From NCBI RefSeq assembly GCF_014189455.1, contig NZ_CP050296.1, positions 5,700,001 to 5,764,000 of the forward strand: a stretch of DNA of 64,000 nt, written 5' to 3'. Shown here one piece after another: positions 37,944 to 53,016 of this stretch. The stretch is from Mesorhizobium huakuii. GTDB taxonomy: Bacteria; Pseudomonadota; Alphaproteobacteria; Rhizobiales; Rhizobiaceae. Numbering within the stretch: position 1 is the stretch's first letter; every line of letters begins with the position of its first letter. Below the pieces are notes generated by a model that saw nothing but the letters and a program-made list of their open reading frames with translations, did not search any database and was not told the DNA's origin. The translations under genes and the position numbers were made by a program.

Positions 37944-38058
37944 ACCTGCCATGTGCCGCCAAAACCCACGCCAGGTTCCAGCCTTGATGTCGCACCATCG
38001 GCCAATCACGGGCTTGGGACTTGCAAAAGCCATGCTTTGCCGTCAGCCTGAGTGGGCT

Positions 38059-38442
38059 ATGGCTCGGCTTTCGCCAAAACATCTTTTGGTCATGCTGCTC
38101 GCGGTCTTCCTGACTGCGGGGTTCAGCCTGTCCGCTGCCCAGGCCAGCATCATGTCAGTCCGCATGGCGGGCGCAATGGCGATGCCAGGCGATACGGGCA
38201 TGGGCAAAATGGCCGAGACACCCATGAAGGGCGATTGCAACGCCTGCCTGAAGGACACGAGCGATAAAGGCGGGCCGATGCAGTGTCCGCCGATCTGCAT
38301 AGCGCCAGCGCTTGCCCTGCTGCCGCAGGATTTCAGGGTAACGCCGGTTCCTTCGATGCAGCAGCCATCGGCCTTGGCCACCCCGTTCCTTCACGGGCGA
38401 AGTTCTCTGCCCGATCCTTACCCTCCCAGACCCAGCGCCTGA
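38059..38442 (+). CDS. Small secreted Met/Cys-containing protein of the copper module
   Basis: A 127-residue protein with a Sec signal (LLVMLLAVFLTAGFSL, cleavage near AQA). The mature part is rich in Met (SVRMAGAMAMPGDTGMGKMAE) and carries a CNAC pair and QCPPIC. Such Met-rich and C-x2-C segments suggest copper binding or metal sensing. It precedes the multicopper oxidase by 135 bases. I do not recognise a named family. The upstream in-frame ATG at 38032 is an alternative start. Confidence 0.65.
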   Translation: MARLSPKHLLVMLLAVFLTAGFSLSAAQASIMSVRMAGAMAMPGDTGMGKMAETPMKGDCNACLKDTSDKGGPMQCPPICIAPALALLPQDFRVTPVPSMQQPSALATPFLHGRSSLPDPYPPRPSA

Positions 38443-38577
38443 CGCCGTTTCAGCCGAATCACGGCTGATTCCCGGCGCCTGATCGCCCGCGCGCATCGTT
38501 GCGCCGTGGGCGCGCATGCCAATCCAGGTCGATGCCGGCATGCCCGCCATCGATCGAGATCGCAAAGGGTCAGAAGG

Positions 38578-40015
38578 GTGAACTCCGATTTCAAATACCA
38601 CATTTCGCGCCGAGACCTTCTCGTCGCGGGGGGCGGGGCTTGCCGTGTCCGCTTCGCTGCCTCCCGCACGCGCCTCCACCGTCGACGAACGCTCAATCAA
38701 GATCGCGCCGGGCCAAACGCGGCTCGGCGGCAGTGACGGTCCATCAACTGCTGTCTGGGCCTACAACAGCGCCGTTCCCGGTCCGACGCTGCGCCTGCGG
38801 CAAGGGCGGTCGGTCCGTATCACCGTCGAGAACGGGTTGGACGAAGACACGACCGTCCACTGGCACGGCATCCGCCTGCCGAACGCCATGGACGGCGTTC
38901 CAGGCCTGACCCAGCCACCCATCAAACCGGGCGAGACATTCGTCTACGAATTCACGCCGCCCGATGCCGGGACCTTCTGGTATCACCCCCACACGGACAG
39001 CCTGGTGCAGCTCGGCCGCGGGCTCGCTGGACCGCTCATTGTCGACGAAGCGGAGCCCGTCCTCGTCGATCGTGATCTTTTATGGCTGCTGCAGGACTGG
39101 CGGCTCGCCGCCGACGGGCAGATCGCCGGCGGCTTCGGCGGCGCGATGGATGCGTCGATGTCCGGCCGCGTCGGCAATGCCGTCACCATCAATGGTAGGG
39201 CTCCAGCCGAACTCGGCGTGAGAGCCGGCGAGCGTGTCAGGCTGCGGCTCGTCAATGCCGCGCTTGCCCGCATGATGGCACTGCGCTTTGAAGGTCACCG
39301 GCCGGTCGTCGTCGCCATCGACGGCCAGCCCTGCGACCCGCATGAACCGGAGAACGGCCGTCTGCTGTTGGCGCCGGCCATGCGCATCGACATCGTGCTC
39401 GACATGCAGGGCGACCCCGGCAGCCGGCATGCTGTAATCGACGACTTTTATGACGGGCTTGCCTATACGCTGACCAACCTTGTCTATGACAAGGTGTCTC
39501 CGCTCCGTGCGCATCCGCTCGATGCGTCTGTCGGCCTGCCGCGAAATCCGTTGCCCGAGCCGGACCTGGCGAACGCCATGCGCCAGGAGATCGTGCTGCA
39601 GGGCGGCATGATGGGCGGCGGCAAGCTCGCCGGCGTCGGCGGCATGCCGGGCATGGGAATGCCCGGCATGAACGGTGGCGCCGCCTGGGCGATCAACGGC
39701 ATGTCGATGACCGGCGACGGCGATGCCGGCATGACGCCACAGTTCATGCTCGAGCGGGGCGCCTCTTGCCACCTCACCATGCGCAACGAAACCGCCTGGT
39801 GGCATCCCATGCATATCCACGGCTTCAGCCTGTCGGTGCTGTCGCGCAACGGCGCGCCGACGCCGCACCGGCAGTGGCAGGACACGGTGCTGATGGCCCC
39901 AAAGGATGTGATCGAATGCGCCTTCGTCGCCGACAATCCCGGAGACTGGATGCTGCACTGCCATGTCGCCGACCACCAGATGGCCGGCCTGATGACCGTG
40001 TTCCGCGTGAAATAA
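38578..40015 (+). CDS. Multicopper oxidase (CopA/CueO type), frameshifted near its start
   Basis: A periplasmic Cu(I) oxidase of about 478 residues. The copper sites are visible as TVHWHG, FWYHPHTD, HPMHIHGF and LHCHVADHQM (the Met is the type 1 axial ligand). A Met-rich insert, GGMPGMGMPGMNGG, is characteristic of CueO/CopA. The Tat signal ISRRDLLVAGGG begins at GTG 38578 but the mature frame is one base off; the GGGG at 38635-38638 should be GGG to give GGGLAVSASLPPARAS. With that single correction the gene is complete. Confidence 0.92.
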
Positions 40016-40046
40016 ATTTGAACCAAACCATCAAAGGAGAACTGCA

Positions 40047-40487
40047 ATGAAGCTGACCTATCGCCTCGCCGCCCTTGCCGTGTTGATCTCAACCCCAATG
40101 CCCGCATTCGCGGCGACGATCGACGCCGTGATGTATAAGAACCCGAGCTGCAGCTGCTGCGAGACGTACGCAGCCTATCTCGAACGGAACGGCTTCAAGG
40201 TCGACATCAAGCCGACCAACGATCTGTCTCAGGTGAGTGCCAGACTTGGCGTTCCGGCCGATCTCGAAGGCTGCCATTCCGTCGTCGTCGGTGGCTACGT
40301 GGTCGACGGCTTCGTACCTGTCGACGTGGTCAAGAAGATGCTCGCCGAGCACCCCGCCATTACCGGCATCGCGATGGCCGGCATGCCGATGGGGTCGCCA
40401 GGGATGGGCGGCCAGAAAACCGAGAGCTGGAAGATTTACGCCTTCACCAGGGATGGCAAGGCGCCGACCGTCTACGCGACGGAGTAA
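40047..40487 (+). CDS. DUF411 periplasmic metal-binding protein, copy 1
   Basis: A 146-residue protein with a Sec signal (LAALAVLISTPMPAFA) and the DUF411 motif KNPSCSCCETYAAYL, then DLEGCHSVVVGGYVVDGFVP. The CxCC thiols and Met-rich tail (MAGMPMGSPGMGG) suggest Cu(I) binding. DUF411 members are frequent next to multicopper oxidases. It follows the oxidase by 31 bases and is the first of a tandem pair. Confidence 0.88.
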   Translation: MKLTYRLAALAVLISTPMPAFAATIDAVMYKNPSCSCCETYAAYLERNGFKVDIKPTNDLSQVSARLGVPADLEGCHSVVVGGYVVDGFVPVDVVKKMLAEHPAITGIAMAGMPMGSPGMGGQKTESWKIYAFTRDGKAPTVYATE

Positions 40488-40520
40488 CGGCCTGAATTTC
40501 TGCAACTAATGGAGATTTCA

Positions 40521-40961
40521 ATGAAGCTGACCTACCGCCTCGCTGCTCTTGCCGCACTGATCGCAACACCGCTGCCCGCATTCGCGGCGACCATCAATGC
40601 GGTGATGTACAAGAACCCGCAATGCAGCTGCTGTGAATCCTATGCCAACTACCTGGAGCACAACGGCTTCAAGGTCGAGATCAAGCCGGTCAACAACCTT
40701 TCGCAGATCAGCAGCGATGCCGGCGTGCCCGCCGACCTCGAAGGCTGCCACACGCTGATGGTCGACGGCTATGTCGTCGACGGCCTGGTGCCGGTCGAGA
40801 TCGTCAAGAAGCTGCTCACGGAACGTCCCGCCATATCAGGCATTACGCTGGCCGGCATGCCGGCGGGCGCACCCGGCATGGGCGGTGAAAAAAGCGAGAC
40901 CTGGACGATCTACGCCTTCACCAAGGACGGCAAGGCGCCGACCGTCTACGCCACGGAGTAA
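40521..40961 (+). CDS. DUF411 periplasmic metal-binding protein, copy 2
   Basis: A 146-residue paralogue of the preceding gene, roughly three quarters identical by eye, sharing the signal, KNPQCSCCESYANYL, DLEGCH, and the tail KAPTVYATE. The ATG at 40521 has GGAG before it; an in-frame ATG at 40509 overlaps that site. The Met-rich motif is weaker here (MAGMPAG becomes LAGMPAGAPGMGG). Tandem duplication by unequal crossing-over is the simplest origin. Confidence 0.88.
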   Translation: MKLTYRLAALAALIATPLPAFAATINAVMYKNPQCSCCESYANYLEHNGFKVEIKPVNNLSQISSDAGVPADLEGCHTLMVDGYVVDGLVPVEIVKKLLTERPAISGITLAGMPAGAPGMGGEKSETWTIYAFTKDGKAPTVYATE

Positions 40962-40967
40962 GCACCC

Positions 40968-41501
40968 GTGAACAAAAGCAAACAGGCCATCATGCTGATC
41001 GGCTTGCTGCTGGCGATTCCGCTGCCCACCAGGGCGGCGGAGGCGCCGCAGAATCTTGCCGTTCTGGAAGCGCCTGCAGCGGTGCCGGCGATCAGCTTCA
41101 TGGATGCCGCCGGCCAGCCGAAAACGCTCGCCGATTATTCCGGCAAGGTGGTGTTGCTCAACATCTGGGCGACATGGTGCGCGCCTTGCCGCAAGGAGAT
41201 GCCGACGCTCGACCGGCTGCAGGCCAAGCTCGGCGGGCCGGACTTCGAGGTCGTCGCGTTGTCCATGGACCAAAAAGGCCCGGACGCCGTGAAGAAATTC
41301 TATGCCGATATCGGCATTACACACCTTGACCTGAACATCGACATTTCGGCCAAGACCATCTTCGCGCTCGGCGCGGTTGGCCTGCCGACGACCCTGTTGA
41401 TCAATCGTGACGGCAAGGAAATCGGCCGGCTGATCGGCCCGGCCGATTGGGATGCACCCGACATGGTCGACTTCATCCGCGGCCGTATCGCCGCCAAATG
41501 A
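40968..41501 (+). CDS. TlpA/ResA-like periplasmic thioredoxin
   Basis: A 177-residue thiol-disulfide oxidoreductase with a signal peptide (IMLIGLLLAIPLPTRA) and a TlpA fold. The redox motif is WCAPC in NIWATWCAPCRKEMP; the cis-Pro is in GLPTTLLI. It starts at GTG seven bases after the second DUF411 stop and is likely to keep DUF411 or oxidase thiols reduced for copper loading. Confidence 0.9.
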   Translation: MNKSKQAIMLIGLLLAIPLPTRAAEAPQNLAVLEAPAAVPAISFMDAAGQPKTLADYSGKVVLLNIWATWCAPCRKEMPTLDRLQAKLGGPDFEVVALSMDQKGPDAVKKFYADIGITHLDLNIDISAKTIFALGAVGLPTTLLINRDGKEIGRLIGPADWDAPDMVDFIRGRIAAK

Positions 41502-41514
41502 GAAAGGAAATGAC

Positions 41515-41934
41515 ATGAGCACCACTGAACTGACCCAGGCCGGCGAGACTTCGTCGCGCCGCGACTTCCTCCCGGCGGTTCGCCCCTATCTCCGTGGTCG
41601 GCGTGGCCTGATCGCGGCCGGCGCGGTCATCGTTGCCGCCGGCCTTGCCTTCAAATGGTCATGGCTGGTCGCCGCAGGCATCGCGCCGGTGCTGCTCAGC
41701 CTGCTGCCCTGCCTCGCAATGTGCGCGCTTGGCCTGTGCATGAACCGGATAGCAGGCGGATCGTCCGGCAGACAGCAATCAGCAACCGATCTCGGAGTTC
41801 CGACTGACGACGGGCCGACGGCCACAAGGCTGACGGCCTCTAACTTGGTAGGACCGATCAGCGCGGGCGATGCACGCTGCTGCCAAAGTGTTCGATCTGA
41901 TCACCGATCGTCGAATGTAGGAGTGAAGCAGTGA
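41515..41934 (+). CDS. Small membrane protein with Cys-rich end
   Basis: A 139-residue protein: a charged N-terminus, one or two hydrophobic helices (RGLIAAGAVIVAAGLAF and WLVAAGIAPVLLSLL), then PCLAMCALGLCM and a polar tail with a terminal CC. Proteins with this LLPCxxMCALxLCM pattern occur in heavy-metal loci. The last residues, after about position 90, show no clear homology and may be variable. The next gene's GTG overlaps its stop. Confidence 0.65.
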   Translation: MSTTELTQAGETSSRRDFLPAVRPYLRGRRGLIAAGAVIVAAGLAFKWSWLVAAGIAPVLLSLLPCLAMCALGLCMNRIAGGSSGRQQSATDLGVPTDDGPTATRLTASNLVGPISAGDARCCQSVRSDHRSSNVGVKQ

Positions 41935-42392
41935 GAACCATCTACGCAACTGTCATGCTGGCCCTTGGTCTGCTGAACGTCGGCGATGCCGTCGCCGCGT
42001 CGAACCAGATCGTGGTCGAAAAGGCTTGGGCGCGGGCAACACCCAATATGGCGGTCACCGGCGGAGGCTATCTTACGGTGACAAATCGCGGCCCCGGTGA
42101 AGATCGTCTGCTGACCGTGACGAGTCCAGTCGCCGAGAAAATTCAGTTTCACGCCATGGCCGTCGATGATGGCGTGGCGAAGATGACCCGGCTTTTGGCT
42201 ATCGAGTTACATCCCGGCGTCCCGGTCATCTTCAAGCCTGGCGGCATCCACATGATGCTGCTTGGGCTGAAGCACCAACTCAAGGAGGGTGAGACCGTGC
42301 CGCTCACCCTGACGTTCGAGAAAGCCGACGCGATCGAAGTGGATGCCCAGGTGTTGGGGATCGGTGCGACGGCGCAACTTGGCGGACAATGA
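41931..42392 (+). CDS. Periplasmic copper chaperone PCu(A)C
   Basis: A 153-residue exported protein, starting at GTG overlapping the previous stop. The signal peptide (YATVMLALGLLNVGDAVA) precedes a PCu(A)C domain with the Cu(I) ligands in FHAMAVDDGVAKM and HMM at the end of the long loop, the H-x-M / M / H-x-M pattern of the family. It hands copper to oxidases or cytochrome oxidase CuA in other bacteria. Confidence 0.92.
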   Translation: MRTIYATVMLALGLLNVGDAVAASNQIVVEKAWARATPNMAVTGGGYLTVTNRGPGEDRLLTVTSPVAEKIQFHAMAVDDGVAKMTRLLAIELHPGVPVIFKPGGIHMMLLGLKHQLKEGETVPLTLTFEKADAIEVDAQVLGIGATAQLGGQ

Positions 42393-42414
42393 GCCCTTAC
42401 AAGGAGAAACACCT

Positions 42415-43200
42415 ATGATTACCAGACAAGCGCATCGGTGTGGCTGGCTGGCTCGCAGGCTCCTGCTTGCCGGCCTGACTGGATGGCTTCTGCTCAATCC
42501 AAGCTTTCAGGGCGCCCGAGGGATGGCGTTCGCGGCCGGCGAAATGTCCCAGGACCAGCTCGACCAGAGGATACACGACTACATACTGGCACATCCGGAA
42601 GTTCTCGTGCAGGCCCTGCAAAGCCTGGACGAGCGCCAGCGCGAAGCAGAGGCAGCCCAGGCGAAGCAGGTGCTCAAGGCGCGCGCCGACGACATCTTCC
42701 GCGACAAGCAGAACCCTATCGGCGGCAACCCTGACGGCAATGTCACGCTGGTCGAATTCTTCGACTATAATTGCCCCTATTGCCGGGTGATGGCGCCGAT
42801 CATGGATCAGGCCGTCGCTGGCGATCCCCAGCTCAAAATCGTCTACAAGGAGTTCCCCATACTCGGCCCGGACTCCCTGTTCGCGGCCAAGGCAGCGCTA
42901 GCGGCCGAACGCCAGGGCAAATATCAGGAATTCCACAAGGCGCTTTATGCGTCCCGAACAAGAGTGACAGAAGCGGTCGTGCTCAGGATCGCTGGTGAGG
43001 CTGGGCTCGATGTCGAGCGGATGAAGAGCGATATGCAGCAGTCCGACATCCAGGCATTGATCGATCGCAACACGGACCTGGCACAGGCGCTGAAGATCAC
43101 GGGAACGCCAGGCTTCGTCGTTGGCGATCAGATTTTTCCGGGTGCGACCGATCTTGAGACGATGAAGAAGTTGATCAGGCAAGCAAGGGCCGGCAAATGA
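42415..43200 (+). CDS. DsbA/Com1-like thiol-disulfide oxidoreductase
   Basis: A 261-residue periplasmic protein with a signal anchor (RLLLAGLTGWLLLNPSFQG), an N-terminal helical extension rich in Gln, and a DsbA fold. The active motif is CPYC in FFDYNCPYCRVMAP; cis-Pro is in ITGTPGFVVG. The ATG at 42415 follows AAGGAG. Its last codon overlaps the next start as ATGA. The extension resembles the suppressor-of-copper-sensitivity ScsC type. Confidence 0.9.
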   Translation: MITRQAHRCGWLARRLLLAGLTGWLLLNPSFQGARGMAFAAGEMSQDQLDQRIHDYILAHPEVLVQALQSLDERQREAEAAQAKQVLKARADDIFRDKQNPIGGNPDGNVTLVEFFDYNCPYCRVMAPIMDQAVAGDPQLKIVYKEFPILGPDSLFAAKAALAAERQGKYQEFHKALYASRTRVTEAVVLRIAGEAGLDVERMKSDMQQSDIQALIDRNTDLAQALKITGTPGFVVGDQIFPGATDLETMKKLIRQARAGK

Positions 43201-43754
43201 CCAACACCCCTAACCGGCGCACCATCGTTCTTGGCGTGTTTAGCGTCGCTACGGCTGCGGGCTTTCTAACGCAACCCGATTTGGCAATCGCCGCCGACGA
43301 TCCGGAATTGGCCAAGCGGTTCAAGGAGCTCAGCCAGAACGGCAACAGCACCTGCTCGGCCAAATTCACGGAGTCGATCGCGACCATGCCGGCGGTGTCG
43401 CGGATCACGGGCTCATGTTGCAGCCCGATGGAAATGAAACGCTATGTCGAGCAGGTGAGGGGGCTCGCCAAGTATCGCGCCATCCCGATGATCCCCGGCG
43501 ATCCGTACGACATAGCGGCGGCGACAGCGCAGCGGATGATGCCCTACTACGATCTGAAGCTCACCGGCGACGAGCAGAAGGCCTATGACTTCGCGATGGC
43601 CAATTCCGAGGAGAAGGGCCCCTGCTGCTGTCCATGCTGGCGCTGGAAGGTGTATGGCGGACTGGCGAAATACCTGCTCCACGAGCACGGCTTCACCGGC
43701 GAGCAGATCGTCGACGTGTGGAACCTTTCCGATGGCTGCGGCGGGGGGATGTAA
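43197..43754 (+). CDS. Unrecognised Cys-rich exported protein
   Basis: A 185-residue protein with a Tat-like signal (NRRTIVLGVFSVATAAGF, cleavage near AIA). The mature part has eight Cys: C53, C74, C75, C143, C144, C145, C147 and C181, with ITGSCCSPME and GPCCCPCWRW as the densest sites. It overlaps the DsbA-like gene as ATGA, so its thiols are probably that enzyme's substrates. It does not look like a known copper chaperone. Metal storage, sensing or sulfide handling are possible; none is shown. Confidence 0.75.
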   Translation: MTNTPNRRTIVLGVFSVATAAGFLTQPDLAIAADDPELAKRFKELSQNGNSTCSAKFTESIATMPAVSRITGSCCSPMEMKRYVEQVRGLAKYRAIPMIPGDPYDIAAATAQRMMPYYDLKLTGDEQKAYDFAMANSEEKGPCCCPCWRWKVYGGLAKYLLHEHGFTGEQIVDVWNLSDGCGGGM

Positions 43755-43833
43755 GACTGGGTTGACGGCGACCTACTCACCGCGCAATTGCCAGTCGGCA
43801 CCAGCGAAGTCGCGCTTTAGCCGGCCTTGGAGG

Positions 43834-43960
43834 ATGATGGCCATGATGGGGGGTTCAGGTAGCATGGGGATGATGGGCGGTATGGCCCTCATCTGGGTCC
43901 TGGTGTTGGGTCGCCCTTCTGCTCGCGATCGCGGCGCTCGTCAAATATCTGCGAACCTGA
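43834..43960 (+). CDS. Small Met-rich membrane protein, frameshifted
   Basis: About 41 residues when one G is removed from the run at 43908-43910: MMAMMGGSGSMGMMGGMA, then IWVLVLVALLLAIAALVKYL and RT. The GGAGG site upstream and the length of 127 bases (3n+1) fit a small gene with one inserted base. Met-rich starts of this kind accompany metal loci. The alternative frame runs on to a different, unlikely end. Confidence 0.55.
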
Positions 43961-43982
43961 TCGGATTGGCAGGGTGCAAGTG

Positions 43983-44215
43983 ATGACGCAGCTCACATCC
44001 ACCCTTACCTGTCCGCATTGCGGATTTCGGGCTTGTGAAACTATGCCGCGCGACGCCTGCCAGTTCTTCTACGAGTGCAGGGGTGCGCGACGCTGCTTCG
44101 GCCAAAGGCAGGGGATTGTTGCGTTTTCTGCTCCTTTGGAGATGTGCCGTGCCCACCGGTCCAGGAGGCGCGGGGACGGCTCGCATCCCGTGGCGACGGA
44201 GATTGTCGCGGCTGA
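43983..44215 (+). CDS. Cys-rich zinc-ribbon-like small protein (GDCC family), frameshifted
   Basis: About 77 residues if one G is restored at 44080-44083: LTCPHCGFRACETMP, DACQFFYECRG, then GDCCVFCSFGDVPCPP. This matches the small GDCCVxCSYG proteins found beside metal-resistance genes. The four CxxC-like pairs would bind zinc or another metal. The length of 233 bases (3n+2) fits one missing base. ATG 43983 is chosen over GTG 43974. Confidence 0.6.
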
Positions 44216-44345
44216 CGACGTCCTCCGGCGAAGTTAGCGCGACGCCGGCCTTACGCTTGCGGAATCCTCTGCAGTTTATCTGCGGTAGTGCTAATATATG
44301 ATGGTCATGCACTTTCGTGCGTGACCATCATCTAGGGAGGATGCG

Positions 44346-44768
44346 ATGAAAACCATGAATCGCAGGTCTGCAATAGCTCTCGGTGTGACTGCCGCCGCGG
44401 TATCGCCTTTGTTCACCCTGGCAGCATCTGCAAAGACCAAGAAGTACGGCCCGAAGGATGGCAAGGAGATTGCGCCCGGTGTTAGAGTGGTTGAGGTCGG
44501 CACCGGCAATTCCGACATTCCCGCCTATAAGAGCATCTCGATTGTCGATGTGGTCTTTCAGCCCGGAGCACACGCGCCTCAAACCGTGATGGACAACGAC
44601 ATGGTATGCACCATTACTTCCGGCGCATTCACCATCAAGAAAGCGGACAAGGAATTCAAGCTCAAGGTGGGTGACGTATACACCTGCTCCAAGGGCAAGA
44701 CCGATGAGGCGACGAATACAAGCAAGGAGGTCGGGGTGCATCGCATCGCCATGCTGATACCTGCCTAG
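44346..44768 (+). CDS. Exported cupin-like protein
   Basis: A 140-residue protein with a Tat-type signal (NRRSAIALGVTAAAVSPL) and a short beta-barrel of cupin type; segments such as VVFQPGAHAPQTVMDND and ITSGAFTIKKADKEFKLKVG suit the two cupin motifs, though only one His is visible in the first. It is separated from the previous gene by 130 bases. Two in-frame Met are possible (44346 or 44355). Metal or small-molecule binding is inferred, function unknown. Confidence 0.7.
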   Translation: MKTMNRRSAIALGVTAAAVSPLFTLAASAKTKKYGPKDGKEIAPGVRVVEVGTGNSDIPAYKSISIVDVVFQPGAHAPQTVMDNDMVCTITSGAFTIKKADKEFKLKVGDVYTCSKGKTDEATNTSKEVGVHRIAMLIPA

Positions 44769-44870
44769 AGCAATTCCAGGAAAAGTGTGAAACGGTTTTC
44801 CGTCCGGAATTGCGTCAAAACAAGGAGATAGAGCGGTTCGCCGTTTCTGTGAAACGGTGAAACGCCCTAA
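44767..44870. repeat. Mesorhizobium-type palindromic intergenic repeat
   Basis: Two hairpin units: GCAATTCC paired with GGAATTGC (44770-44813), then an imperfect dyad (GCGGTTCGCCGTTTC with GAAACGGTGAAACGC). This composite belongs to the RIME-like intergenic repeats of rhizobia. It starts in the stop codon of the cupin-like gene. Confidence 0.7.
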
Positions 44871-45005
44871 GGAATCCCCGGCCGGATGATCGGTCGCGTC
44901 ACATCCGGCCGCCGCCTTCAAGTAAGTACGCTCCGGTCAGGTTCGCGAACCCCTGGAAGCTTTTGCGATTGCGAATGATCCGAATGCCGCACTCCTGACA
45001 GATGG

Positions 45006-46259
45006 TCAGCTCGGCCGGACCAGCACGTGTTTCTTCTTGCCGAGCGAGAGCTTCACGACACCTTCCGGACTCAGATCCTGAAGCGTGACCATGCGACGGT
45101 CGTCGCTGACCGACTGGTCGTTGATGCGCACCGCGCCGCCCTGGATGTGCCGCCGCGCCTCGCCGTTGGACGATGCCAGCCCGGCAGTGACCAGCAGCGA
45201 CAGGATGCCGACGCCGGCCTCAAGCGCTGCCTTGTCGGCCCCGACGGTCGGCAATGTATCGGCGAGCGCCCCTTCCTCGAAGGTCTTGCGCGCGGTTTCC
45301 TCGGCCTGGTTCGCGGCCTCGCGGCCATGGACGATCGCCGTCGTTTCCGTGGCCAGGATCTTCTTGGCCTCATTGATTTCGGAGCCGCCAAGGGCAGCAA
45401 GGCGCGCGATCTCATCTAGGGGCAGGCGGGTGAATATCTTCAGGAAGCGCTCGACATCGGCGTCCTCGGTGTTTCGCCAGTACTGCCAGAAATCATAGGG
45501 CGAGAAGAGGTCGCCGTTGAGCCAGACCGCACCTTTCGCCGACTTGCCCATCTTGGCGCCGGATGATGTCGTGAGCAGCGGCGTGGTCAGGGCGTAAAGC
45601 TGCGGCGTGCCCATGCGGTGGCCGAGATCGACGCCATTGATGATGTTGCCCCACTGGTCCGACCCGCCCATCTGCAGGCGGCAGTTCTGGCGCCGCGCGA
45701 GCTCGACGAAATCGTAGCCCTGCAGGATCATGTAGTTGAATTCGAGGAACGACAGCGACTGCTCGCGGTCGAGGCGCAACTTGACGCTGTCGAAGGTCAG
45801 CATGCGGTTGACGGAGAAATGCCGGCCGACGTCGCGCAGGAACTCGACATAGTTGAGCTTCATCAGCCAGTCGGCGTTGTTGACCATGATGGCGTCGCTC
45901 GGGCCGTCGCCGAACCGCAGGATGCGGCCGAAGATGCGCTTGATGCCTTCGATGTTGGTGGCGATCGCTTCGGGCGTCAAAAGGCTGCGCTGGTCGTCGC
46001 GGAAGGACGGGTCGCCGATCATCGACGTGCCGCCGCCCATCAGCGCGATCGGCCGGTGTCCGGTTTCCTGCAGCCAGTAAAGCATGGTCGCGGAGATCAA
46101 ATTGCCGATATGCAGGCTGGTGGCGGTGGCGTCATAGCCGACATAGGCGGTGACCGTTTCCTTGGCGAAAAGCTGGTCGAGGCCGGTCTCATCCGAAATC
46201 TGGTGGATGAAGCCGCGCTCGCTCATCGTGCGCAGGAAATCGGATTTGAAGGCAGGCAT
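45006..46259 (-). CDS. tyrS: Tyrosyl-tRNA synthetase
   Basis: A 417-residue class I synthetase that charges tRNA-Tyr. The HIGH motif is HIGN (TSLHIGNL, about residue 48) and the KMSKS loop is KMGKS ([11 protein letters not shown]). The tyrosine-binding segment YDFVELARR and the C-terminal S4 RNA-binding domain ([19 protein letters not shown]) are intact. Full-length single gene. Confidence 0.97.
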
Positions 46260-46326: not shown

Positions 46327-46423
46327 AGCGCGATCAGCAAAAGTGGAATCCGGTTTTGCGGCAGATCGCGCTTCAATCAGGAACTCGCGATCAGCAAAAG
46401 TGGAATCCGATTTTGCGTCAGAT
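46327..46423. repeat. Two-unit direct repeat in the tyrS upstream gap
   Basis: A 38-base unit starting CGCGATCAGCAAAAGTGG at 46329 is repeated at 46386 with two mismatches. The first copy is flanked by AAGCGCGATC and GATCGCGCTT, making a hairpin with an inner GCAAAA/TTTTGC stem. It fills most of the 335-base gap between tyrS and the GT2 gene, where no gene is seen. Confidence 0.75.
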
Positions 46424-46628
46424 TGGCTATGCGCCAAAGGATCACGAGATGTCCTGACGATCACCCGTTGCTGAAACGGTGCGACGAGCCGTCCGGCACG
46501 AATGCTTGCTTCATCGTTTCGGCTGGCGTAATGAGGCGCCGCGCCAAAGGTTCTTGCAGCCCACGACCTCGAGCGGCACCGCACGGCATCCAATAATGCC
46601 ATATTCGACGACAGAGCCCCGACGCGAC

Positions 46629-47362
46629 ATGCCGGACGCATTGATATCCATCGTCATTCCTTGCAGGAACGAGGCGGCAAACCTGCCGCTCTTGATCGAC
46701 GAGATCGAGGCGGCGATGGCCGGGCGCGACTTCGAACTGATCATCGTCAATGACGGCTCGACCGACGAGACAGCCGCCGTGCTGACCGAGCAGGCGGCAC
46801 TTCGCACCTTTCCGGTGCGCGAATTGCGGCATCAGAAATCCGCCGGCCAGAGCCTTTCGGTGCGTTCGGGCGCCTGGGCAGCCCGCGGCGGCATCGTCGC
46901 CACGATCGACGGCGACGGCCAGAACGATCCGCAATATATTCCCGTGCTGGTCGACGCCTTGCGGCAGGCCGGCCCCGATTTCGGCGCCGCCCAGGGCAGC
47001 GCCTCAAGCGCCGCGACAGCAAGGTCAAGCAGCTGGCGTCTCGCTTCGCCAACTGGCTGAGAAACGCCATCCTGCATGACGAGACGCGCGACACCGGCTG
47101 CGGCCTGAAGGCGGTCCACACCGATATCCTGCGCAAACTGCCGTTTTTCGACGGCACCCACCGCTTCGTCCCGGCCCTGGTCATCCAAGAAGGCTATCGC
47201 GTCGTGCATTGCGACGTCGTCGACCGCTCGCGCCGCCACGGCAAGTCGAATTACGGCATTTTCGACCGCGGCCTGCAGGGCGCGCTCGATCTCGGTGGTG
47301 TCTGGTGGCTGCGCCGCAGGCGCCGCAGAATGCCAAAAGTAGAGGAAATCAAGCGTGTTTAA
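46629..47362 (+). CDS. Family 2 glycosyltransferase (RgtE/ArnC-like), frameshifted
   Basis: About 244 residues. The nucleotide-sugar motifs are VNDGSTDETAAVL and ATIDGDGQNDPQ. The acceptor part continues in the next frame as LKRRDSKVKQLASRFANWL, GYRVVHCDVVDRSR and DLGGVWWLRRRR. One C is missing near 46994-46998 (CAGGGCAG for CAGGGCCAG). The enzyme would make a polyprenyl-phosphate sugar; unlike ArnC it has no C-terminal membrane helices. Starts at 46596 or 46629 both possible. Confidence 0.85.
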
Positions 47363-50924: not shown

Positions 50925-51600
50925 CTATCTCAGCCGTTTCGGCCGCGGATCGGACAATTCGCCCGCCAGCCGGCGGTCGAGATAGTCCGCGCATTCTTCG
51001 ATCAACAGATCGGCGTCGTTGGCGAAAAAGTGGTTGGCGCCGGGCAAGGTCTTCTGGGTGATGGTTATGCCCTTTTGCGTGTGCAGCTTGTCGACCAGGC
51101 CTTGTACATCCTTAGGCGGCGCCACCTTTGTCGGCATCGCCATGGATGATCAGGCCCGATGACGGGCAGGGCGCTAGGAACGAGAAATCATAGGTGTTGG
51201 GCTGCGGTGCGATCGAGATGAAGCCTTCGATCTCGGGCCGGCGCATCAGGAGCTGCATGCCGATCCACGAACCAAAGGAATAGCCGGCGACCCAGCAGCT
51301 CTTGGAATCCGGATGCAGCGACTGGACCCAGTCGAGTGCTGCCGCCGCATCCGACAATTCGCCCGTGCCGTGGTCGAATTCGCCCTGGCTGCGGCCGATG
51401 CCGCGGAAATTGAAGCGCAGCGTGGTGAAATCGCGCTTCTGGAACATATAGAAGAGGTCGTAGACGATCTTGTTGTTCATCGTGCCGCCAAACTGCGGAT
51501 GCGGATGCAAGACAATGGCAATTGGCGCGCTCTTTTCCTTGGAGGGCTGGTAGCGTCCCTCCAGGCGACCGGCCGGACCGGTGAAAATGACCTCAGGCAT
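50925..51600 (-). CDS. Alpha/beta hydrolase, frameshifted
   Basis: About 224 residues. The hydrolase elements are LHPHPQFGGTMNN (oxyanion region), AGYSFGSWIG (nucleophile Ser in GYSFG), and after the shift HFF near the end with the His in PGANHFFAN. At 51127-51129 there are three T (AAA on the coding strand) where two restore SGLIIHGDADKVAPPKDV. This type, close to KANL3/Tex30-like hydrolases, has no known substrate. The end lies 22 bases from PaiB on the same strand. Confidence 0.88.
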
Positions 51601-51838
51601 GAAATACTCCACTTGGTATACGAATGCGCGGCGCCCGGAACGTGTCTTCCTCTGGCCTTGACGCAGGGCGAGCGTCTTCTTAGAAGCTAGTTTAGAACTG
51701 TTCAAAACTGAGTGGCCAGACGTCGAGCCCGGCCACCCGCGCCGCAAGCCGCGTAAATAGGACGGCTCGCCTTGGAATTTCAAGGAAATAACGCCATACG
51801 ACAACCGAATGGCTTCTGACGGGATCAACTGGACGAAA

Positions 51839-53016
51839 ATGGCCGCAAAACGCGCCTATCTCGACTATAATGCCAGTGCGCCGCTGCTCCCAGCGGCACG
51901 CGAGGCTATGGTTGCGGCGCTTGACGTGACCGCCAACCCGTCATCGGTTCATGCCGAAGGCCGCGCCGCGCGCCGCCTGATCGAGACGGCAAGGCGCGAG
52001 GTTGCGGCACTGGTCAATGCCAGGCCCGAACATGTCGTGTTCACCTCCGGTGCGACCGAAGCCGCCTCGACGCTGCTTTCACCCGACTGGCAGATGGGGC
52101 GCGGCAGCGTGCGCATGAGCCGGCTTTACGTCAGCGAGGCCGATCATCCCTGCCTGTTGAATGGCGGGCGCTTTCCGGCAGCGCAGGTGACGCGCATCGG
52201 CGTCGATGCCGATGGCATTGCCGACCTTGCCGCCTTGGCGCGGCACTCGGCGATCACGACAAGGCCGATGGCCTGCCGCTGGTGGCGATTCACGCCGCCA
52301 ACAACGAGACCGGCGTGATCCAGCCGATCGATCTGATCGCGGCGATCGTCAAGGCTGCGGGCGGCATCCTTGTCGTCGATGCGGTTCAGGCCGCCGGCCG
52401 TGTTTCAATCGACATGTCAGCGGGTTACGCCGACTATTTGATTCTGTCTTCGCACAAGATCGGTGGTCCCAAGGGCATCGGCGCCATTGTCGCCGCCGCC
52501 GATCTGATGATGCCGAAGCCCCTGATCAATGGCGGCGGCCAGGAAAAGGGCCATCGTGGTGGCACCGAAAACCTCGCCGCCATATCAGGCTTTGGTGCTG
52601 CCGCGCGCGAAGCGCTCGCCGGACTGCCGGCGATCGATGCGGTGCGCCAGCGCCGCGACGAGATCGAGGCCATCGTGAAAATGCTGGTCCCGGACGCGGA
52701 AATCTTTGGAACCGGCGCGCCAAGGCTTGCCAACACGGCATTCTTCGCTATTGCGGGCGTCAAAGCCGAAACCGCGCAGATCGCCTTTGATCTGGCCGGT
52801 GTGGCGCTGTCGGCTGGCTCTGCCTGTTCGTCGGGCAAGGTCGGGCCGAGCCACGTGCTGAAAGCCATGGGTTATGGCGACAGTCTTGGCGCCTTGCGCG
52901 TGTCGATCGGTGCTGCGACCGGCGCTGAGGACATCGAGTTGTTCCGCACTGCGCTGGCGGGCATTGCCGCACGGCAAGCCGCCAGGGAAAAGGCGGATAG
53001 AGAAGAAGCCGCGTAG
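51839..53016 (+). CDS. Cysteine desulfurase (NifS/IscS type), frameshifted
   Basis: A pyridoxal-phosphate enzyme of about 393 residues that takes sulfur from cysteine for Fe-S clusters. The PLP Lys is in LSSHKIGGPKG and the catalytic Cys in SAGSACSSGKVGPSHVLKAM. The frame breaks near 52238-52243: one base restores LAALGDHDKADGLPLVAIHA from LARHSAITT. It opens the suf operon region and is distinct from the SufS at 56999, so two desulfurases are present. An alternative start is 51809. Confidence 0.93.

Follow-up and report, generated by a model that had tools for sequence, protein, structure and literature searches.

A CutF-headed gene block with a probable role in envelope copper handling, and its orphan eight-cysteine family, in Mesorhizobium

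Previous studies of the cutFOG operon of Rhodobacter capsulatus indicated that copper bound to CutF delays the cotranslational export of this protein through a C-terminal stalling-like motif, and that the delay allows unfolding of the stem-loop that covers the ribosome-binding site of cutO (PMC9973294). A CXXXC motif and a C-terminal PP are the published marks of CutF-like proteins, whose genes lie close to CutO-cluster genes in 31 Rhizobiales cases and whose relatives plain sequence similarity finds poorly (PMC8456105). Two other upstream open reading frames, Xanthomonas copL and Bordetella CruR, are CutF-like leaders before a copper oxidase and a TonB-like transporter, respectively, a likeness drawn from description and not from sequence (PMC9973294). 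Here, we describe a block of genes in a Mesorhizobium genome (8.45 Mb, 4 contigs) that begins like cutFOG and continues with thiol and copper-carrier proteins and an unnamed protein with eight invariant cysteines (eight-Cys). The stretch analyzed, hereafter the window, comprises 64,000 nt (C1:5700001-5764000). It holds twelve plus-strand gene regions between an AsmA-like gene (end 37943) and tyrS (minus strand, stop side 45006), both flanking genes being named from a reading of their translations.

Given its CutF-like leader, the pairing and covariation in the spacer behind that leader, and a DUF411 protein that matches CopG, the head of the block is, by its sequence features, a cutFOG-type operon. 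It opens with a gene for a small exported protein (38059–38442) that has a hydrophobic N-terminus, a CPPIC motif and the C-terminal end DPYPPRPSA. Behind it lies the gene of a multicopper oxidase (MCO; 38578–40015) with a Tat-like signal and a GTG start inside a paired start region; its frame is broken near 38.63 kb, its piece at 38645–40012 matched Pfam Cu-oxidase, Cu-oxidase_2 and Cu-oxidase_3, and an RR motif is seen in the MCO copy of Mesorhizobium carmichaelinearum ICMP 18942 (locus L010). Two DUF411 genes follow (40047–40487 and 40521–40961), a tandem duplication with 79% DNA identity over two stretches (240 and 193 nt). Both products carry the Pfam DUF411 domain and CSCC, and the first matches CopG (6wis/6wje) at E 5.7e-23; CutG was modelled on 6WIS in the cutFOG paper (PMC8456105). 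The block thus shares with R. capsulatus cutFOG a small exported CXXXC/PP protein, an MCO and a CopG-like C-X-C-C protein in the same order, a structure (here predicted) that hides the oxidase ribosome-binding site, and a Tat signal in CutO matched by the Tat-like one in the window MCO. It differs in having at least six further genes downstream in the same direction, a doubled DUF411 gene and a spacer longer than most.

The original prediction, a note made from the letters of this DNA, had called the first product a Met-rich small protein. The gene is indeed there, but its product is better named CutF-like by its CXXXC and C-terminal PP. At 127 aa, the protein falls within the CutF-like length filters of both 2023 (<150 aa) and 2021 (<170 aa), and its N-terminal hydropathy (Kyte–Doolittle 2.44, with AxA) points, by hydropathy only, to an export signal. 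The comparative counts below are based on at least 79 loci of a genome collection, all of them picked up by an eight-Cys profile and none through other genes of the block. CutF lies ahead of the MCO in 38 of these 79 loci. Among 41 CutF homologues (39 of the 79 loci, locus L107 and the window), a central CXXXC is present in 40, and all 41 have PP within the last 15 residues. By analogy with R. capsulatus, this small head protein probably senses copper during its own synthesis.

The genes had also been described as running in one direction with short gaps. They all lie on the plus strand (38059–44768), and the distances from the MCO gene to the eight-Cys gene are short (31, 33, 6, 13, −4, 22, and −4 nt), but cutF and the MCO gene are set apart by a structured spacer of 135 nt (94–150 nt in relatives; window fold z −4.4, 200 shuffles). 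In the minimum-energy fold, a strand within the last cutF codons (P-Y-P-P-R-P; 38418–38433), predicted to hide the oxidase start, pairs with 38567–38581, the region that holds AAGGG and the GTG start (38578). We examined this pairing over 40 spacers, which include Sinorhizobium and Rhizobium loci that differ in sequence on both paired strands. At least 4 expected pairs between the 3' codons of cutF and the start region of the oxidase gene were found in 40/40 spacers (range 4.8–18.3), compared with 211/800 dinucleotide shuffles, where the 4-pair threshold was chosen by us and the oxidase start is only approximate in a few rows; the median z of the alignment-free pairing test was −3.4. Two covarying hairpins, one directly 3' of the cutF stop codon (38443–38477) and the other at 38529–38553, lie in the spacer. 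In a 32-row alignment, which leaves out more distant rows and was scored with a structure drawn from the window sequence, 94.7% of 571 hairpin cells are paired and 6 of the 18 hairpin pairs show two-sided changes (shuffle mean 2.8; 2/500 shuffles reach 6). The covariation score is 0.177 against 0.124 in shuffles, none of 500 of which reach it, and slid control structures are lower on every measure (at most 56.7% paired and 3 pairs with two-sided changes). The pairing in all 40 spacers and the covariation of the hairpins predict that the oxidase ribosome-binding site is shielded. A known Rfam family was ruled out for the spacer, as no match fell there and two sub-threshold matches fell elsewhere.

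Ahead of cutF is a conserved promoter-like element, CTTGC-(A/C)AA...TT...CAGCCT (38020–38049, plus strand), which we infer from its conservation to be a module-specific promoter. Its last hexamer is separated from the ATG of the cutF-like gene by 9 nt, so the transcript is likely leaderless or has a very short leader, if that ATG is the start. With a loose anchor, 36 of 41 upstream regions have the element right in front of cutF, and a tighter pattern matched once each in 32 of 80 sequences (the window plus the 79 loci), all in the orientation of the block, with 0.0 expected (20 mononucleotide shuffles). The exact pattern occurs in 12 of 61 genomes of the genus, all 12 being among the 15 that carry the eight-Cys gene, so that three eight-Cys-bearing genomes are without it; a backwards control pattern matched in 2 genomes. 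Twelve of the 13 exact sites lie ~4.4–8.8 kb upstream of the eight-Cys gene on the same contig and strand, the 13th being on another contig of a fragmented genome, and the genome of the window has a single site. A consensus promoter scan (1 site vs 1.9 expected) and a terminator scan (6 vs 4.9) were not used as evidence.

No metal ATPase or CueR-type regulator had been seen near these genes in the original prediction, and the genome bears this out, with five Cu-ATPase-profile and seven CueR-profile matches, none of them inside the window. It does not follow, as had been claimed, that the module works entirely outside the cytosol, because three Cu P1B-ATPases and one CueR score over the cut-off elsewhere in the genome, the CopA efflux pathway is needed for CutO maturation in R. 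capsulatus (PMC8456105), and one protein of the block, the GDCC protein described below, looks cytosolic. CueR-type control at the block was considered and rejected: three CueR-like dyad patterns are absent upstream of cutF in 41 sequences, and the over-cut-off CueR match is ~2 Mb away. A MerR-family gene lies within the fetched flanks in 10 of 32 Mesorhizobium-titled loci, and transcriptional control, unlinked or nearby, may act on the block. CutF-type translational sensing, by analogy with cutFOG, is a candidate explanation of the missing local regulator.

The eight-Cys gene (43197–43754) encodes a protein with a Tat-like signal from a family that, by profile and alignment, is unnamed. At E 1e-3 or better it has 1423 homologues, the best 120 of which are without a precomputed Pfam domain. 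C53, C74, C75, C143, C144, C145, C147, and C181, together with M78 and W148, are invariant in 47/47 aligned sequences from bacteria and archaea. The window protein matched no Pfam or NCBIfam family even at E 10, and the profile matched no PDB sequence at E 1; other members gave scattered weak family matches, each in 1–4 of the 47 members, the best being to an opacity-associated protein model (0.00016, one member). With start codons chosen by script, an N-terminal RR pair (Tat-like) is found in 37/79 loci and in none of the candidate-phylum or archaeal ones. Its cysteines and its neighborhood suggest a thiolate copper role. Csp copper storage proteins are likewise Cys-rich and in some cases Tat-exported; unlike them, the eight-Cys profile is placed with that family by no Pfam, NCBIfam or PDB sequence match. 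Two leads on the family were discarded: cluster 8 of the neighbor clustering mixes a membrane protein with a separate Cys protein family and is not an eight-Cys relative, and carriage by viruses was rejected, since of 109 pattern matches in a viral collection none is related to the eight-Cys profile. A second unnamed Cys family (YRPCC-DN...FPDCNHG, C-terminal Cys) was observed as a neighbor of the eight-Cys gene in bacteria of candidate phyla, in archaea and in one metagenome-assembled genome (MAG) of Hyphomicrobiales, at L057:9060-9953, L062:8946-9839, L044:18767-19696, L082:3644-4648, L083:1583-2674 and L085:5060-6046; the one member examined had no Pfam match.

Four genes lie between the DUF411 pair and the eight-Cys gene. 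The first encodes a TlpA-like periplasmic thioredoxin (WCAPC; 40968–41501; Pfam and NCBIfam) and the second a membrane protein of an unnamed family, MemP (41515–41934), with hydrophobic stretches and LLPCLAMCALGLCM; MemP has 698 homologues, and its C66, C70, and C75 are invariant in 14 aligned sequences. The third encodes a PCu(A)C copper chaperone (41931–42392; PF04314, 115.5 bits against a cut-off of 29.4). HX10MX21HXM is the signature motif of PCu(A)C and was seen by eye in the translation. This gene stands between MemP and ScsC in the window and in L010, a slot that SCO1 holds in many relatives. The fourth product is an ScsC-like DsbA (42415–43200) with a DSBA domain, CPYC, and an ScsC_N match of 38.7 bits (cut-off 25.8). 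As in the Scs proteins, a DsbA-like protein with ScsC_N is found beside a TlpA-like thioredoxin; unlike in them, the window block is without an ScsB/DsbD-type reductase, and the sole DsbD_TM match in the genome lies ~1 Mb off at C1:6786592. The only SCO1 match of the genome is also outside the block. Pfam and NCBIfam therefore agree with the families originally assigned to the MCO, both DUF411 proteins, the TlpA-like, PCu(A)C and ScsC-like DsbA proteins, and a periplasmic copper and thiol module remains the best reading of the block.

The gene order recurs more often than chance would allow, since CutF, MCO, DUF411, TlpA, ScsC and eight-Cys follow one another on one strand in 36 of the 79 loci; ScsC is ahead of the eight-Cys gene in 49. 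Neighbors were counted over the whole of the fetched flanks, either by tblastn (E 1e-3) or by the cluster to which they belong; the numbers are lower bounds (short contigs, missed open reading frames), the clustering may merge families, as one cluster did, and MAG binning errors are possible. Among the 79 loci, we counted ScsC-like proteins in 52, TlpA in 47, MCO in 46, DUF411 in 43, CutF in 40, SCO1 in 39, MemP in 29, CcdA in 23, CopA in 18, the cupin in 15, MerR in 14, cupredoxin in 12, the Met-rich transmembrane (TM) peptide in 11, CsoR in 10, GDCC in 9, RND in 6, and PCu(A)C in 4. For several of the clusters, one representative each was checked against Pfam, giving SCO1-SenC, DsbD_TM, ACR_tran with a CusB-type adaptor, E1-E2 ATPase, metal-sensitive repressor and MerR. 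Of eight copper-linked families, one or more occur in 65/79 loci, namely 32/32 Mesorhizobium-titled, 8/14 candidate-phylum, 7/9 archaeal, and 18/24 other loci.

The block is, as the comparison of flanking sequences indicates, a recurrent insertion. The eight-Cys gene is found in 15 of the 61 genus genomes. Of 72,556 plasmid records, 13 carry it; 8 of the 13 are predicted conjugative, and in two (Burkholderia, Paraburkholderia) the match covers only 28% of the query. We searched the 61 genomes with TyrS and took loci from the best 30, the window's own included: the AsmA and TyrS ends are at most 134 nt apart in 21 of the 29 other loci and 728–751 nt apart in 2, 6 have no AsmA match, and none has block genes within its 1.5-kb flank. 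In the closest TyrS locus (98%), similarity resumes at window positions 37944 and 45012, among the matches listed. Conversely, the block occupies the AsmA–tyrS site in 6 of 31 block-bearing loci, the other 25 being without an AsmA or TyrS match in the fetched DNA. The AsmA–tyrS gap (window 37944–45011) is thus a recurrent place of insertion, seen in the window and in L010, L011, L015, L016, L019, and L036.

Related blocks occur on Sinorhizobium plasmids. Plasmid accessoryA of Sinorhizobium meliloti KH35c carries a shorter version, with genes for an RND adaptor, CusA/CzcA, a hypothetical protein (CutF-like), MCO, DUF411, SCO, DsbA, CcdA and, where the eight-Cys match falls, a further hypothetical protein, and pSinB of strain M14, whose metal modules have been spoken of in general (PMC6115938), carries eight-Cys with TlpA, SCO, DsbA and CcdA; unlike the window block, these are plasmid-borne and have CusA/CzcA RND pumps. 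A 2013 paper lists a block of Mesorhizobium STM 4661 that Zn and Cd induce together and that, in the accessible parts of that paper, was not proposed as a system: nine consecutive genes (MESS4v1_360046-360054) are up with Zn by log2 0.82–1.33 and with Cd by 1.59–2.27, with a falling trend towards the 3' end (PMC3668242). These genes (MCO, two exported proteins with a predicted metal-binding domain, CycY, thioredoxin, an unknown, an oxidoreductase, a PDI-like protein and a CcdA fragment) resemble the module in order and are co-induced; they differ in that the place of PCu(A)C in the window is taken by the oxidoreductase, which is SCO1 in L027. The match is inferred from their order, their names and the STM 2683 locus L027, STM 2683 homologues being listed for 7 of the 9 genes. 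The original view that the assembled system is new and its parts known only separately is accordingly too strong: the CutF-like leader, MCO and DUF411 follow the R. capsulatus cutFOG order, and the STM 4661 block was already in print. No open-access title or abstract opening among those searched describes the assembled block as a system, a scope outside which most subscription papers fall. The observation is real. The block, probably an enlarged and mobile envelope copper operon with CutF at its head, is however not unique and only partly new. What appears new, relative to the accessible parts of the papers examined, is the linking of the orphan eight-Cys family to the operon, the start-hiding strand within the PP codons, and the module-specific promoter.

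Taken as a whole, the block is probably an enlarged cutFOG-type operon for envelope copper handling with CutF-type sensing. The module-specific promoter would start the transcript just before cutF, and the P-Y-P-P-R-P codons of this short exported protein would double as the strand that is predicted to hide the oxidase start. By analogy with R. capsulatus, copper on the CXXXC of nascent CutF would slow its export and hold the ribosome on those codons, which would open the structure and start translation of the oxidase. Oxidation of Cu(I) would fall to the exported oxidase, and the carrying of copper to PCu(A)C and the two CopG-like DUF411 proteins. The Cys proteins would have their thiol state controlled by TlpA and the ScsC-like DsbA, and the eight-Cys protein may be a thiolate Cu(I) sink or relay; relatives add CcdA, SCO1, CusAB-type RND pumps or CopA beside this core. 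More tentatively, and at less than even odds, we suggest that the eight-Cys proteins are an undescribed secreted Cu(I)-thiolate family of rhizobia, candidate phyla and other bacteria, and archaea, with cysteines kept reduced and loaded by the adjacent DsbA/TlpA/CcdA and copper chaperones, and that in rhizobia a nascent-chain copper sensor turns on the entire unit, its stalling codons serving at the same time as the lid over the start site of the oxidase.

Several observations weigh against the operon and its sensing as proposed. The CutF assignment is built on features, position and RNA structure, because CutF relatives are hard to find by sequence similarity. On the RNA side, the paired percentage of the hairpins is favored by a structure derived from the window and kinship can inflate the shuffle contrast, so that the two-sided changes are the stronger sign; about a quarter of the shuffles also pass the 4-pair threshold; and published CutF spacers are mostly <100 nt (PMC9973294), compared with 135 nt in the window. 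The RNAalifold consensus on the raw MAFFT alignment was weak (−6.95 kcal/mol, 17 pairs) and did not recover the shielding of the ribosome-binding site; because no long-range helix came from this uncurated alignment, the long-range pairing was tested alignment-free. As for distribution, 14 of the 79 loci have none of the eight copper-linked families. CutF is found in no locus of the candidate phyla (14) or the archaea (9), which confines the sensor idea to a part of the eight-Cys family. The treatments in the STM 4661 tables are Zn and Cd, without copper, and the table of regulated genes of STM 2683 does not list the homologues of that strain, although it does list nearby genes with Cd (730254, 730256) and with Zn (730267–730269) (PMC3668242).

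Two other functions of the block were weighed against envelope copper handling. A block that chiefly served to build copper enzymes, and not to detoxify, would use TlpA and DsbA, together with either PCu(A)C or SCO1, as a metallation line delivering copper to the CuA site of cytochrome oxidase or to the oxidase of the block itself, as the presence of SCO1 (39/79), PCu(A)C (4/79) and TlpA (47/79) among the loci would allow. TlpA, ScoI and PcuC cooperate in Bradyrhizobium. However, a separate SCO1 is encoded elsewhere in the genome, a long way from the window, the block is accessory (the eight-Cys gene being in 15 of 61 genus genomes), some relatives adjoin RND (6/79) or CopA (18/79) genes, and the matching STM 4661 genes are induced by Zn and Cd, all of which make this reading rather unlikely. 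That same induction of nine consecutive genes (log2 0.82–1.33 with Zn, 1.59–2.27 with Cd) would speak for a general soft-metal (Cd, Zn) thiol or sulfide sequestration unit with copper not its main ligand, a role at which the STM 4661 table hints for its thiol genes. Against it stand the MCO, CopG-like and PCu(A)C proteins, which are copper families, the neighbors in 8/14 candidate-phylum and 7/9 archaeal loci, which include CopA, CsoR, cupredoxins and MCO, and the STM 2683 homologues, which are not among the regulated genes in the accessible parts of that study; we regard it as very improbable.

A further question is whether the block still works in this strain. Three genes are broken in reading frame in this assembly, namely those of the MCO (break near 38.63 kb), the Met-rich TM peptide and the GDCC protein. 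In M. carmichaelinearum ICMP 18942 (L010), the same block at the same site has all three uninterrupted. If these breaks were real mutations, the block would be a decaying island, as the three disrupted frames themselves would suggest. On the other hand, identity to L010 is 95.8% and 98.8% in the aligned pieces that bear the block, compared with 96.3% in the right flank, and indels against L010 leave genes outside the block shortened or split as well: a family-2 glycosyltransferase has 193 aa instead of 294, an alpha/beta hydrolase of 300 aa in L010 is split, and a class-V aminotransferase has 169 aa instead of 397. Because of these flanking genes, sequencing or assembly error is likelier than decay, which we consider quite improbable. 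The truncated or split stretches (window 46479–47060, 50925–51828, and 51809–52318) hint at assembly indel errors in their own right.

Three smaller genes end the block. The Met-rich single-TM short peptide (region 43835–43972) and the GDCCVxC zinc-ribbon-like protein (region 43980–44230), present in 11 and 9 of the 79 loci, respectively, are on that account variable riders. Up to eleven exported or membrane proteins had been counted in the original prediction; the GDCC protein is no clear member of these, as its L010 copy, which scores 102.9 bits to NF041374 (cut-off 40), has no hydrophobic N-terminus, and it is probably not exported and looks cytosolic. The last gene encodes an exported cupin-like protein (44346–44768), its export judged by hydropathy and its fold weakly backed by two cupin families, both below the cut-off. 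It was counted as a member originally and does lie on the same strand, but a near-perfect palindrome with 15-nt arms (44298–44331, judged by eye) stands between an AT-rich stretch and its ATG. A similar palindrome and AT-rich stretch were seen by eye upstream of the cupin in 15/15 cupin-hit loci, including those in which it stands at a distance from the block or in the opposite orientation, and the cupin is therefore probably its own transcription unit. The palindrome looks like an operator or mRNA hairpin of a regulator. Just after the cupin, window 44767–44815 gave a sub-threshold Rfam match to the Brucella sRNA CI408 (24.4 bits, gathering 398), perhaps a shared intergenic repeat, and a short sequence around GATCAGCAAAAGTGGAATCCG (window 46335–46420) occurs twice near the tyrS start and looks, by eye, like a dispersed intergenic repeat.

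The host, a soil bacterium, belongs to a legume-nodulating genus, and the block of ~10 genes appears to be a portable unit for copper handling outside the cytoplasm. An orphan family of eight invariant cysteines, which spans rhizobia to archaea and matches no Pfam entry, is tied to copper by its neighborhood, and the CutF mechanism would be present in a compact form, in which the presumed stalling proline codons are the very bases that hide the start of the next gene. If this is true, a transferable copper unit able to work without a dedicated DNA-binding regulator nearby would be present in some rhizobia.

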